Source of the DNA: Synechococcus sp. M16.1
GTDB lineage: Bacteria; Cyanobacteriota; Cyanobacteriia; PCC-6307; Cyanobiaceae
Direction of reading: 5' to 3'
DNA length: 64,000 nucleotides
Assembly: GCF_014279895.1 (NCBI RefSeq)
Contig: NZ_CP047954.1
Span: 1,736,001 to 1,800,000, forward strand
A program made the position numbers and the translations under genes. The notes under the pieces are model-generated. The model ran no database searches. It worked only from the letters and a program-made list of their open reading frames with translations, and was not told where the DNA came from. Below, one piece after another: positions 47,512-52,319 of this stretch (the stretch's first letter is position 1; every line of letters begins with the position of its first letter).

Positions 47512-47805
47512 TCAGGGACGACGGCCGCGGTTGGACTTGCTGTGCCGATAGGCGGGATCAGTGGCTTCCTCCTGCAGCTGACGCATCGTCTCAATCGCAA
47601 AGCCCCCAAGACCACCTGAGCTGATCACCATCAGATAAAAGAGGCGCAAACGGCCCAGCGCAATCTCGGCCGGGCTGTTGTCGATCAGCACCTTGAGGAA
47701 ATAGGCCACCGCCAGACCAAGACCGACACCAATGGCCACTGCAATCAACACACGCATGCCACTGAAGGGCTTGCGCTGATTCACCTCGGAGTTCAACTCA
47801 ACCAT
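47512..47805 (-). CDS. Small membrane protein linked to RND pump (97 aa)
   Basis: Two hydrophobic helices (MRVLIAVAIGVGLGLAVAYF and LFYLMVISSGGLGGFAIET) with a basic tail RHSKSNRGRRP. Its ATG overlaps the RND gene stop by one base, so it is translated in the same operon. Function unknown. Confidence 0.65.
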   Translation of the reverse strand: MVELNSEVNQRKPFSGMRVLIAVAIGVGLGLAVAYFLKVLIDNSPAEIALGRLRLFYLMVISSGGLGGFAIETMRQLQEEATDPAYRHSKSNRGRRP

Positions 47806-50800
47806 CAGCTCGGTTGCGGGGTGGGGGTAGGACCGTCCTCAGGAGGCTTGGCATCGGCCTGGCCCAGCAACGTCTTCATCACCACGTAGAAGACAGGCAC
47901 CACAAGGGTGGAGAGGAAGGTGGCCACCAACAGACCACCGAACACCACCAGGCCCAGGGACGACTGGCTCTGGGCACCCGCACCACTGGCCAGCATCAGT
48001 GGCAGGAAGCCGGTGAGGGAGGAAATCGCCGTCATCAGAATCGGCCGCAGACGGGACTTGGCGGAGAACTTGGCAGCCTCAAGCGCCGACTCGCCCTCAC
48101 CCATCTTCTGGTTGGCCAGGTCGACGATCAGAATCGCGTTGCCGCCCGCCAGACCGATAAGCATCACCAGACCCACCTGGGCGTAGATGTTGAGCACCTG
48201 GCCGGCACCGCCGAGAAACACCAGGGCCCCCAGCAACGCCGTCGGCACGGTGAGCAGGATGATGATCGGGTCGGTGTAGCTCTCGTACTGAGCCGACAGC
48301 ACCAGGAACACCGCCAGGATGCCGAGCGCGAAGATCACCACCGCCAGGGATCCAGCCTTCACTTCTTCGCGGGAGATGCCGGTCCAGTCGAAACCAAGGC
48401 CTTGATAACTGCCAGCATTGAAGATCTGCTTCATCGCCCCGATCGCCTGACCGGAGCTGTTGCCTTCTTTGGGGGTGCCGTCGATCTTGATCGAGCGGTA
48501 GAGATTGAAGTGGGGAATGACGCTGGGCCCCACCGTCTGCTTCACGGTGAAGAACTCCGAGAGGGGAATCTGCTCGCCCTTGGCATTGGCTACATAGATG
48601 GCGGACAGCCGCTGGGGTGTGGCCCGGCTGACCTCATCGGCCTGCACATACACCCTGCGCACCTTGCCCTCCTGGAAGGTGTCATTCACGTATTGCCCAC
48701 CGAAGTTGACGCTGAAAACAGACATCGCGGAGGCGAAATCGACACCGAGCGAAGCCATCTGCTCCCGGTCCACATCGATCTTGTATTGCGGAGCCTGGGG
48801 GGAGAACAGCGTGTAGACCTGATTGAGAACGGAATCGCTGTTCGCCGTCTGAATGATCTGCTGAGCAGATCCGAAAAACTCATTCAACGAATAGACGCCA
48901 CTGCTTTGGTCCAGCAGCTGGAACTCGAAGCCACCACCGGTGCCATAACCGGGAATCGACGGGGGCTCAACAACAAAGACCCGACCCCCATCAATCGCGC
49001 CATACAACTTGGCGTTGAGACGCTTCACCACCGCTCCCACGGTGTGGTCCTTGCCGGGCCGATCATCCCAGTGGTTCATCCCGATGAAGAACAGACCCTT
49101 ATTGGGCGCGTTGCCATCGAGACTGGCGCCGCTGAACAGAGCCGCTGATGCGATGTCCTCCTCGGAACGCAACACCTCAGCCACCTGACGGTTGATCGCC
49201 AGGGTTTTCTCGTTGGAGACACCCTCAGGAGCCTGCACGAAACCAATGGCATAGCCCTGGTCTTCGATCGGCACGAATCCACCAGGAATTCTGGTGAAAG
49301 CGAATCCCGTCAGCAGGATCCCGGCAGCCAGGGCCGCCATCACAATCGGGCGGGCTTTGAGCACAGCATCGAGGATCGACGCATAGCTCTTCTCAAAGCC
49401 GCCATACAAACGGTTGAAGTTGGTGAAGATCACCGGGATGAAGTAGCCAACGCCGCCTCCAATGGCGGTGAACAACACCACCGGGATCGGATTAGAGACG
49501 ATCACACCTGTTGTGATCACACCCACCGCAGCACCACCGACGGTGAAGGGAAGACGCAGGGGCAGACCGCTGATCTTGCCGGCGATGAAGCCGACCACCG
49601 CACCGATCACCGTTGGGATCAGCGCTGCTGCCGCTCCATTACCAGCACTGAGCAAGCTGTAAATGAAACCAAGCACCACACCGGCCGTGGCGTACTGATT
49701 GCGGCTGAGCTCCTTGGTTTCGCGAGACAAAAGCAGGGCCGACAGCATCGGCGAGAAGGTGAGGGCGTTGAAGGTGGAGATGCCGATCGAGAAAAGGATC
49801 GTGGCGGCGAACTGTTTGTAGATGGTGCCAGTGGCACCTGGGAAAAACAGCACCGGCAGGAACACCGCCATCTTCACCAGGGAAGTGGCAATCACAGCCC
49901 CGAACAGCTCATCCATGGTTTCCATGGCGGCCTGCACCGAGGTCATCCCTTCCGCCTTCTTGGCAGAGGTGTCTTCCACCACGGTGATGGCGTCATCCAC
50001 CACAAGGCCGGTGGCCAGCACAAGACCAAACAGGGTGAGCTGATTGAGTGAAAATCCGAAGGCCAGCACCAGGGCGAAGGTGCCGATCAAGGCCACCGGA
50101 ATCGCAATCGCGGGCACAAGCGTGGCTTTCCAGTTCTGCAGGAACAGGAACAGGATCAGCACCACCAGGATCACTGCGTCCCGAAGGGAGTTGGTCACCC
50201 CTTTGATCGACTGGTTGATGAAGTCGGTGGTGTCGTAAATCTTCTGGACCCCGAGGCCAACCGGCAAGGTTTGCTCGAACTCATTCAGCACCTCCTTGAC
50301 GCCATTGGAGACCTCGATGGCATTACTTCCGGAGAGCTGGTAGATCGCGATACCAACCGAAGGTGTGCCTTTGAGATCCATGGCATCAATGCCGTAGGTC
50401 TCACCGCCGAGCTCAACGCGGCCCACATCCTTGAGCCGCACCAAGCCACCGGCATCAGTGGTTCTGAGAATGATGTTCTCGAACTCCTGGGTGCTGGTCA
50501 GACGACCCTGCAGCTGCACTGTGAAGGTGTATTCCTGACCTTCAGGGGCAGGGGCGCCGCCGATCTTGCCGGCGGGCACCAGACGGTTCTGGCTTCGCAG
50601 CTGGTTGACCACATCGGTGGCCGTGAGGTTGTTGGCGGTCAGCTTCTCGGGGTCCAGCCAAAGGCGGAAGGCGATCTTGCGGTTGCCGAAGTAAGTGACA
50701 TCGCCGACGCCCTTCACTCGTTTGACGTTGTCGGTGAGGTTCTTGTCGAGATAACCGCTGATCGTCTCCACCGAATATTCGGTTTTGGCGGGGTCTTCGT

Positions 50801-51236
50801 TGACGAAGTTGTAGACGAGCAGGATCGAGTTGGAGGCCTTGTTCACCGTCACACCCGACTTGCGCACCTCCTCCGGCAACTGAGGTTCCGCCAGGGAAAC
50901 GCGGTTCTGCACGTTCACCTGGTTGATGTTGCCGTCGGTGCCGCTGTCGAACGAAACGGAGATCGAACTCACACCATCGGAGGAGCTGTTGGAGGTGATG
51001 AAGTCCATGTTCTCCACACCGTTGATCTGCTGCTCGAGCACGGAGGTGACTCCCTGCTCAACGGCAACAGCATCAGCACCCACGTAGGTGGCCTGCACCT
51101 TCACCGTTGGAGGTGCAATGTCGGGGAGGTTTTCAATCGGAAGGATCGGAATCGAGATCAAGCCGACGATCACGATCAGCAGGCTGCAGACCGTGCTGAG
51201 AACCGGCCGGGTGATGAAATTATTGGAAGCAGACAT
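47805..51236 (-). CDS. RND efflux pump (AcrB/HAE1 family) with extra hydrophobic insert
   Basis: 1143 residues. TM1, then porter-domain features (LPDIAPPTVKVQATYVGADA, LPEEVRKSGVTV), and the proton-relay Asp pair D414-D415 in GLVVDDAITVVEDT. Second-half porter domains and TM7-12 are complete. It exports small molecules using the proton gradient with a periplasmic adaptor. Residues about 505-610 form a long Gly/Val/Ile-rich hydrophobic block between TM6 and TM7, about twice the usual size, adding perhaps three helices. The adaptor gene ends nine bases upstream. No local regulator or outer-membrane factor is seen. Confidence 0.93.
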   Translation of the reverse strand: MSASNNFITRPVLSTVCSLLIVIVGLISIPILPIENLPDIAPPTVKVQATYVGADAVAVEQGVTSVLEQQINGVENMDFITSNSSSDGVSSISVSFDSGTDGNINQVNVQNRVSLAEPQLPEEVRKSGVTVNKASNSILLVYNFVNEDPAKTEYSVETISGYLDKNLTDNVKRVKGVGDVTYFGNRKIAFRLWLDPEKLTANNLTATDVVNQLRSQNRLVPAGKIGGAPAPEGQEYTFTVQLQGRLTSTQEFENIILRTTDAGGLVRLKDVGRVELGGETYGIDAMDLKGTPSVGIAIYQLSGSNAIEVSNGVKEVLNEFEQTLPVGLGVQKIYDTTDFINQSIKGVTNSLRDAVILVVLILFLFLQNWKATLVPAIAIPVALIGTFALVLAFGFSLNQLTLFGLVLATGLVVDDAITVVEDTSAKKAEGMTSVQAAMETMDELFGAVIATSLVKMAVFLPVLFFPGATGTIYKQFAATILFSIGISTFNALTFSPMLSALLLSRETKELSRNQYATAGVVLGFIYSLLSAGNGAAAALIPTVIGAVVGFIAGKISGLPLRLPFTVGGAAVGVITTGVIVSNPIPVVLFTAIGGGVGYFIPVIFTNFNRLYGGFEKSYASILDAVLKARPIVMAALAAGILLTGFAFTRIPGGFVPIEDQGYAIGFVQAPEGVSNEKTLAINRQVAEVLRSEEDIASAALFSGASLDGNAPNKGLFFIGMNHWDDRPGKDHTVGAVVKRLNAKLYGAIDGGRVFVVEPPSIPGYGTGGGFEFQLLDQSSGVYSLNEFFGSAQQIIQTANSDSVLNQVYTLFSPQAPQYKIDVDREQMASLGVDFASAMSVFSVNFGGQYVNDTFQEGKVRRVYVQADEVSRATPQRLSAIYVANAKGEQIPLSEFFTVKQTVGPSVIPHFNLYRSIKIDGTPKEGNSSGQAIGAMKQIFNAGSYQGLGFDWTGISREEVKAGSLAVVIFALGILAVFLVLSAQYESYTDPIIILLTVPTALLGALVFLGGAGQVLNIYAQVGLVMLIGLAGGNAILIVDLANQKMGEGESALEAAKFSAKSRLRPILMTAISSLTGFLPLMLASGAGAQSQSSLGLVVFGGLLVATFLSTLVVPVFYVVMKTLLGQADAKPPEDGPTPTPQPS

Positions 51237-51245
51237 CGATCAACC

Positions 51246-52319
51246 TCAGTTCGCCTTGGCGAGTTGCACATGCACGGGCATGCCGTGTTTCAGGTTGAGC
51301 AGATTGGTTGTGGCCACCATCTGATTGGCTTCGAGGCCTTCGGTGATCGGATACAGCTGGTTCTCCAATTTCCCCACCGTGACCGGCGTCTGGAGGGCGA
51401 ACTTGGCATCAGCGGGAAGCTTGCCGGCCTTGATGCCCTTCTCCAGCTTCTCGAGATCAGCCTTGCCCGGATTCGCTTTGAGCTCATCAAAGCTGCCGAG
51501 ACGGAAGACGAAGCTCTGACCGGAGGTCTGGGTGACAGCGGCGAAAGGAACGGCCAGTTGTTGCTCAGCCTTGATCTGCACTCGGGTGCGCACACGCTGG
51601 CCATCCTTCAATTGCCCATAGGTGTTCGGGAAGACCGCCTTCACCAACAATCCCTGGGTCTGTTTGTTGATCCGAGGATCAATCGAGCCGACTTGCCCGG
51701 TTGCGATCACATCCTCACTGCCTGGGGCACTGAGCAACACCGGCTGCCCAAGGGACAGACGCGTTGAGAACACCGCCGGCACCTCCACACGGGCTTCCAG
51801 TTCGTTGTTCTGCACCAGGCTGGTGAACACCTGGCCCTGCTGAATCACGTCGCCCACCTTCACTTTCACGTCAGCGACCGTGCCGGCGGAGGGTGAGGTG
51901 AGATTGCTGTAGTCGAGCTCCGCCTTGGCGGAGATGTATTGGGTGCGATAGCGATCCAGATCCTTCTGCGACGCAGCGCCCGTCTCAGCCAGGTAGGCGT
52001 AGCGCTCGTAGTTGGCTTTGGCGTTGTCGGCTTTGGCTTTCTTCTCGACTTGATCGAGCACCACCAACAGCTGACCGGGCGCAACTTCATCACCCTGGCT
52101 GATCTTGAGTTGCTCAATCCGACCCCCCGATTGAGCGGCGAGCTCGACAAGGTTGCTGGCCTCCAACGTGCTGACGGTGTCGATACCCTCGGTGAATTCG
52201 GCCAACTGGGTGGAGACGGCCTGCACCTTCGGCGGCGGCGGCTTCGGCGCTTCGCTCTTGCAGGAACTAACCGTAATCAGAGCAGCGAAGGTGATCAGAA
52301 GACGCTGCGGATGACGCAC
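51246..52319 (-). CDS. RND periplasmic adaptor (membrane fusion) lipoprotein
   Basis: 357 residues. N-terminal lipobox (ALITVSSCKSE), lipoyl/beta-barrel halves (LVELAAQSGGRIEQLKISQG; LSLGQPVLLSAPGSEDVIAT) and a coiled-coil hairpin (VEKKAKADNAKANYERYAYL, ETGAASQKDLDRYRTQYISA). It bridges the RND pump to an outer-membrane channel. First gene of the adaptor-pump-small protein operon. Confidence 0.93.
   Translation of the reverse strand: MRHPQRLLITFAALITVSSCKSEAPKPPPPKVQAVSTQLAEFTEGIDTVSTLEASNLVELAAQSGGRIEQLKISQGDEVAPGQLLVVLDQVEKKAKADNAKANYERYAYLAETGAASQKDLDRYRTQYISAKAELDYSNLTSPSAGTVADVKVKVGDVIQQGQVFTSLVQNNELEARVEVPAVFSTRLSLGQPVLLSAPGSEDVIATGQVGSIDPRINKQTQGLLVKAVFPNTYGQLKDGQRVRTRVQIKAEQQLAVPFAAVTQTSGQSFVFRLGSFDELKANPGKADLEKLEKGIKAGKLPADAKFALQTPVTVGKLENQLYPITEGLEANQMVATTNLLNLKHGMPVHVQLAKAN

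Follow-up and report, generated by a model that had tools for sequence, protein, structure and literature searches.

Organisation of the locus and family membership of the pump

The window, a stretch of 64,000 nucleotides from the genome of Synechococcus sp. M16.1 (2.11 Mb, one contig), carries on its minus strand, in this order, an adaptor gene, an RND pump gene and an ORF of 97 amino acids (Table 1). The frame at 47805-51236 encodes a single ACR_tran protein, with a score of 1001.7 bits against PF00873 (cut-off 28) and of 1067 bits against the HAE1 model TIGR00915, above its cut-off of 940.35. Ser487 (AcrB Ser481) was retained in the focal orthologue set alongside the aspartate pair of TM4, Arg1062 and Thr1069. 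HAE1 pumps are also recognised by a lysine (or arginine) at AcrB position 940 in TM10, and at this position the pump of the window has Gly1032. Judged by descent and profile, that is at the level of sequence, the pump is a member of HAE1 in which one relay residue has been relocated. One further RND gene was found in the same genome; its 1041-aa frame has a loop of 19 residues at the corresponding place and a lysine in TM10. In Synechococcus CC9311, the RND pair sync_2766/2767, which may or may not correspond to the focal pump, was induced by two DNA-damaging agents and did not measurably alter MICs when tested in E. coli, according to excerpts of PMC3744912.

Table 1 Features of the pump locus in the window
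Feature	Position	Strand	Evidence
Periplasmic adaptor (membrane fusion protein), upstream of the pump	51246..52319	-	TIGR01730, 150.9 bits (cut-off 94.9)
HAE1-type RND pump, 1143 aa	47805..51236	-	PF00873, E 4.5e-301; TIGR00915 match
D414 D415 of TM4 (AcrB D407 D408)	49992..49997	-	AcrB alignment; DD in 120/120 distinct orthologues
Lys455 of TM5 (AcrB L449), relocated lysine, codon AAG	49872..49874	-	AcrB alignment, orthologue comparison
Insert between TM6 and helix I-alpha, residues 504-606	49419..49727	-	Alignments with AcrB and other cyanobacterial pumps; profile comparisons
Predicted insert helix i, about 512-531	49644..49703	-	AlphaFold models, hydropathy
Predicted insert helix ii, about 535-556	49569..49634	-	AlphaFold models, hydropathy
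Predicted insert helix iii, about 561-581	49494..49556	-	AlphaFold models, hydropathy
Predicted insert helix iv, about 584-604, continuing towards I-alpha	49425..49487	-	AlphaFold models, hydropathy
Gly1032 of TM10 (AcrB K940), lost lysine, codon GGC	48141..48143	-	AcrB alignment, orthologue comparison
Arg1062 of TM11 (AcrB R971), retained	48051..48053	-	AcrB alignment; 119/119 readable
Thr1069 of TM11 (AcrB T978), retained	48030..48032	-	AcrB alignment; 119/119 readable
97-aa protein, two hydrophobic segments	47512..47805	-	Start codon overlaps pump stop by one base

The insert between TM6 and helix I-alpha and the small downstream protein

Profile and PDB-sequence matches of the pump stop at about residues 505-514 and restart at about 603. 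In the alignment with AcrB of E. coli MG1655, about 103 residues (504-606) replace the loop of about 20 residues which directly precedes I-alpha. A sequence-only reading of this DNA had placed a hydrophobic block of about 100 residues at 505-610 (49415-49715), which is correct within a few residues, and had counted perhaps three additional helices. Four were predicted instead by two AlphaFold models, one of the whole pump and one of the insert alone, at about 512-531, 535-556, 561-581 and from 583/584 onward, the last one running unbroken into I-alpha in the whole-pump model and being interrupted at 599 in the insert-only model. Confidence in the whole-pump model is modest (mean pLDDT 63, pTM 0.54, ten-residue blocks of the insert between 64 and 80); the insert-only model has a mean pLDDT of 82. 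In 113 distinct sequences, the number of Lys/Arg residues per sequence was 0.02 and 0.19 in the two putative periplasmic loops of the insert, 1.32, 1.24 and 2.55 in the three putative cytosolic loops; the segments delimited as helices i and ii contained 1.59 and 0.66. An even number of helices leaves TM6 and TM7 in place; together with the four helices of both models and the avoidance of the periplasmic loops by basic residues, this gives probably 16 TM helices and not 15. Three helices were thus ruled out in favour of four by the models and the Lys/Arg distribution, and an insert of four membrane helices is, on these predictions, very likely. The extension of the pump by extra membrane helices, for which that reading had proposed topology and AlphaFold-type predictions, is upheld by the models.

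The insert of the window matched no Pfam family, and the best Pfam value for single orthologue inserts was E 0.0042 (TauE), in one of 27. Foldseek gave no match to the insert model at E 0.001 or better, the VIA structure comparison reached a Z of at most 6.9, and the best match among the sequences of solved structures had an E of 0.037. Relatives of the insert outside pumps were sought in Pfam, solved structures, the same genome and 291 genomes of the phylum, with weak matches only. Insert-like stretches were seen in two ORFs of about 290 aa (G109, G111; L281, L282), seemingly sulfate ABC-transporter permeases from their sequence and neighbours, and were judged to be chance similarity.

A search of 386 genomes of the phylum with the insert (E 0.01) gave matches in 34 genomes. 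In 27 of them the match covered nearly the full insert within a frame of 1137-1153 aa, all from the family of the window, and the seven others gave weak matches; the full-length pump was found in the same 27 genomes. A scan of GTDB genomes, from which the best 80 of 173 confirmed loci were used, led to Synechococcus, Cyanobium, Prochlorococcus MIT 0701, Vulcanococcus and relatives, and the insert was present in all 80, in a short form in seven and with a frame broken inside the insert in L099. Its occurrence in all 27 full-length orthologues of the first search and all 80 loci of the second rules out the misassembly that had been considered for this block. In the family itself, the focal pump was detected in 138 of 400 genomes (E 1e-250). 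Among 20 listed of the 262 genomes with no match at this threshold, 15 are of 1.9 Mb or less and several are incomplete. The full orthologue set, drawn from part of the 138 pump-bearing genomes of the family, comprised 143 sequences including 40 additionally fetched pumps, of which 120 were distinct when compared over residues 150-1110. All 120 have the insert, with a length of 102-105 aa in 113 and of 59-60 aa in seven. The insert is, with near certainty, real and conserved. One pump of the set, on a contig titled Phycisphaerae MAG MED835 (L164), groups inside Synechococcus, and this contig is probably wrongly binned. The alignment with cyanobacterial HAE1 pumps that the sequence-only reading had also proposed finds the block throughout the focal orthologues; at the same site, all 46 pumps read from other families of cyanobacteria have loops of 15-26 residues.

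The adaptor gene lies near the focal pump in 27 of 27 loci from the phylum genomes and in 78 of 80 from the GTDB scan; for the small protein, detected by profile search, the corresponding numbers are 27 of 27 and 75 of 80. Conversely, an RND pump frame was found beside the small protein in all 30 small-protein loci examined. Its gene overlaps or closely trails the pump gene in nearly all focal loci, and overlaps the pump stop by 1 or 4 bases in 62 of 75 assigned starts. The earlier proposal of a 97-residue membrane protein whose gene is arranged for co-translation with the pump is borne out, its one-base overlap with the pump stop being part of a conserved arrangement. The five loci without the small protein are L131 and L173, whose stretches finish within or soon after the pump, L167, whose pump frame is truncated, and L159 and L161. 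These last two, from Synechococcus WH 5701 and a second copy in Cyanobium CACIAM 14, form the deepest focal branch and have the long insert, with no small protein found within the available stretch. The insert and the small protein can thus occur apart. For the small protein of the window no Pfam family was found over its cut-off, and homology with the insert is not claimed, the match covering 18 columns with a probability of 7% (26% for the first half alone). By analogy, this protein may be an AcrZ-like accessory; it is known here from gene overlap and co-occurrence.

The lysine of TM5 and the probable history of the hairpins

We found that position 455 is a lysine in 27 of 27 pumps lacking the TM10 lysine and a leucine in 49 of 49 having it (window included). 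Both sites could be read in 119 distinct pumps, of which 60 are Lys455/Gly1032, 59 are Leu455/Lys1032 and none is mixed, one further pump being truncated; after clustering at 98% identity, the two groups count 50 and 56, with one truncated. Four of the 1143 columns have disjoint residue sets between the groups: 455, 1032, 1096 and the sparsely filled 1141. On average, the swapped pumps have 1.0 basic residue more in TM5 and 1.0 less in TM10, and no other helix differs by more than 0.45. Residue 1096 (47949-47951), in the last TM helix, is Thr in all 59 distinct unswapped pumps and Leu, Ala or Ser in all 60 distinct swapped ones. Outside the focal group, all 45 readable pumps from other families of cyanobacteria and all 12 paralogues have the TM10 lysine. 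From the codons of 76 focal pumps, L455K and K1032G each require at least two base changes, and no intermediate at codon level was found among these 76. Mixed states were equally absent from the 40 additional pumps, 20 of which were fetched for this purpose (19 with 69-74% identity, at the switch). The truncated frames L099, L119, L167, L168 and L173 were excluded from these counts and from the tree; L102, L117 and L164 (unknown bases) and truncated rows were left out of alignment A4, and L102 and the short forms out of alignment A5. By the filter used, L189 and L193 have no readable pump, and the frames of L212 and L247 break off before TM10.

The tree was built by a quick method, with SH-aLRT values only and long outgroup branches, and does not fix how MIT 0701, the WH7803 group and the remaining pumps branch from one another. 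On it, the swap at positions 455 and 1032 requires one change, so the swap is a single inherited event and the 60 and 59 pumps are counts of descendants and not of repeats. All 59 distinct unswapped pumps carry the insert (52 long, seven short), from which it follows that the insert predates the swap. In titles and abstracts, with partial coverage of the literature, we found no paper describing such an insert or a relocated relay lysine. The moved lysine is a more important change than the insert, and it lies outside the block on which the sequence-only reading had centred.

The short forms of the insert have about 44 residues fewer, which is the length of one hairpin. A paralogue of the pump in the same family (L174-L182, L190-L192) has a 59-residue loop at the insert site in 12 of 12 cases, and none of the 12 stretches read showed a small protein belonging to it; the small-protein match of L175 sits at the neighbouring focal operon of the same contig. 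When the two halves of the focal insert were compared with each other, the profile scores were 20.1 and 16.7, whereas 41 control windows taken from the TM regions of the pump itself did not exceed 12.4 and 13.2; with the pump flanks removed, the scores were 20.9 and 15.9, and those of the 41 controls no higher than 12.4 and 13.6. The corresponding probabilities are 35% and 11%, and 50% and 10% with the flanks removed, for a Gly-rich stretch; single-sequence scores of the halves relative to shuffles gave z values from -1.2 to 7.9 (median 1.7). The hairpin of the paralogue matched the focal insert with a probability of 60-96% when the shared pump flanks were included, and weakly when they were not (17-33%; scores of 17-19.5, controls at most 10.4). 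On the tree, the classes with no, one or two hairpins require four changes, which may be read as a gain of one hairpin, the addition of a second, and two independent reversions to a single hairpin (L138; L149-L151 together with L153-L155). That the two hairpins arose by duplication is the fairly probable explanation of these similarities, and the hairpin of the paralogue is possibly of separate origin.

Proposed mechanism and comparison with known systems

We propose that the gene product is an AcrB-type, probably proton-driven pump of 12 + 4 membrane helices which would work together with the adaptor encoded upstream. The insert is located in the linker between the repeats R1 and R2, and the family ancestor would have gained there, between the end of TM6 and the start of I-alpha, two related Gly-rich TM hairpins, the paralogue and a few orthologues having a single one. 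The most likely place for the insert helices is beside I-alpha, on the face of the protomer turned to the lipid, where they may pack with the two-helix protein encoded downstream; they would tune a linker that moves during the transport cycle. A role as an accessory domain, as suggested earlier, is possible. The linker of the RND repeats can apparently accept extra helices one hairpin at a time, with a partner protein encoded directly downstream.

The extra hairpins may instead be a lipid-facing filler or an aid to insertion or folding, with no effect on transport. This is consistent with the faster evolution of the insert, whose dN/dS was above that of the whole pump in each of seven pairs (0.093-0.289 against 0.046-0.138; 0.153-0.255 for the insert in the five swapped-clade pairs), several dS values exceeding 1 and being near saturation, and with the appearance of the short form at two places on the tree. 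However, at least one hairpin is kept in all 120 distinct focal pumps, and the insert has invariant Gly, Tyr, Phe and Asn positions among orthologues, which makes a filler unlikely.

The place to which the lysine has moved is informative with respect to AcrB, whose K940 is regarded as indispensable for the proton relay. Excerpts of PMC4359379 describe the repeats R1 (TM1, TM3-6) and R2 (TM7, TM9-12), linked by I-alpha, and an R1/R2 engagement involving K940 with D407/D408. In the portions available of PMC8749003, the protonated piperazine of the inhibitor BDM88855 sits amid D407, D408, K940 and L449, with bridges to D408, in the area normally taken by K940; L449 is counted among the residues of the AcrB inhibitor pocket in an excerpt of PMC13139501. 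The corresponding text of PMC8300642 gives L449 as highly conserved, and reports that just three of 135 pumps have arginine at position 940, all others having lysine. As L449 lies beside D407, D408 and K940 in the printed AcrB structures, a lysine at the AcrB-449 position is well placed to replace K940. It is likely that the relocated lysine serves the proton relay, with a geometry and a function such as these positions would allow. The relay lysine of the clade would then have moved from TM10 to TM5 by the coupled changes K1032G and L455K, and Lys455 would probably still charge-balance and tune D414/D415, from within R1. As TM5 belongs to R1, like TM4 with the aspartates, a Lys-Asp bridge would no longer be the clamp between R1 and R2. 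Opening and closing of the repeats would rely on Arg1062/Thr1069 in place of this bridge; either these two retained residues bridge the repeats, or the essential duty of the lysine would be charge balance. We suggest tentatively, at somewhat less than even chances, that the relay lysine has crossed the interface of R1 and R2, that the clamp role of K940 is not universal, that swapped pumps couple protons through Arg1062/Thr1069 or through charge balance, and that the longer linker may have permitted the swap. Any causal or permissive part of the lengthened linker in the swap is speculation.

Another possibility is that the clade has dropped the lysine-relay coupling to protons, Gly1032 opening a site for another ion, such as sodium, and Lys455 being a structural counter-charge. 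The DD of TM4, Ser487 and Thr1069 remain as possible ligands, and most swapped loci of the GTDB scan are titled Synechococcus. Synechococcus WH7803 and RCC307 are marine strains; the pump of WH7803 is of the Lys455/Gly1032 kind. Prochlorococcus MIT 0701 is also marine, yet its pump retains Lys1032, and a positively charged residue next to the aspartates speaks against a metal site, so that we regard a change of ion as quite improbable. It is more improbable still that the insert enlarges the trimer interface or creates a different oligomer, as the sequence-only reading had suggested. The extra helices in a presumably trimeric membrane protein speak for this idea; against it, the remaining protein matches AcrB-type pumps, and we found no support for a different oligomer. 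Hardly credible is a loss of function of the swapped pumps with K455 as an incidental substitution, despite the inactivity of K940A AcrB reported in excerpts of PMC11058585 (see also PMC4359379), given that Lys455 is kept in 60 of 60 distinct swapped pumps and that decay is unlikely under strong purifying selection (five swapped pairs, dN/dS of 0.046-0.092 for the whole pump and 0-0.013 for residues 440-470).

A double-hairpin pump with its relay lysine moved from TM10 to TM5 is on balance our preferred overall reading, its function being deduced from the alignments and models, and we hold it with only moderate confidence. The conserved relocation to TM5 would separate two roles of K940, the tuning of the aspartates and the bridging of the TM repeats, and makes the model testable. 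The swap thereby bears on the engaged/disengaged model of AcrB and can be seen as a natural experiment on the energisation of RND pumps.

Compared with known systems, the small protein resembles E. coli AcrZ in being a small membrane protein that accompanies an RND pump; in the accessible part of PMC7267776 AcrZ has one TM helix, whereas the protein of the window has two hydrophobic segments, starts at the pump stop and is without a Pfam match over cut-off. The single-hairpin paralogue has a loop of the same length as the focal short form and 49-53% identity in the N-terminal half among the matches listed, and differs from the focal pump by its one hairpin and by the retained TM10 lysine (12/12). 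Pumps of other cyanobacterial families (L183-L188, L195-L234) are the best matches outside the family, the top five with 55-56% identity in the N-terminal half, and differ by their short loop (46/46) and TM10 lysine (45/45 readable). Like AcrB of E. coli K-12, the pump of the window passes the HAE1 model, has an adaptor gene upstream and possesses the TM4 aspartate pair with the equivalents of Ser481, Arg971 and Thr978. Unlike AcrB, it is about 85 residues longer from TM6 to I-alpha (105 versus 20 in the same alignment columns), with a glycine for the TM10 lysine and a lysine where AcrB has L449 in TM5.
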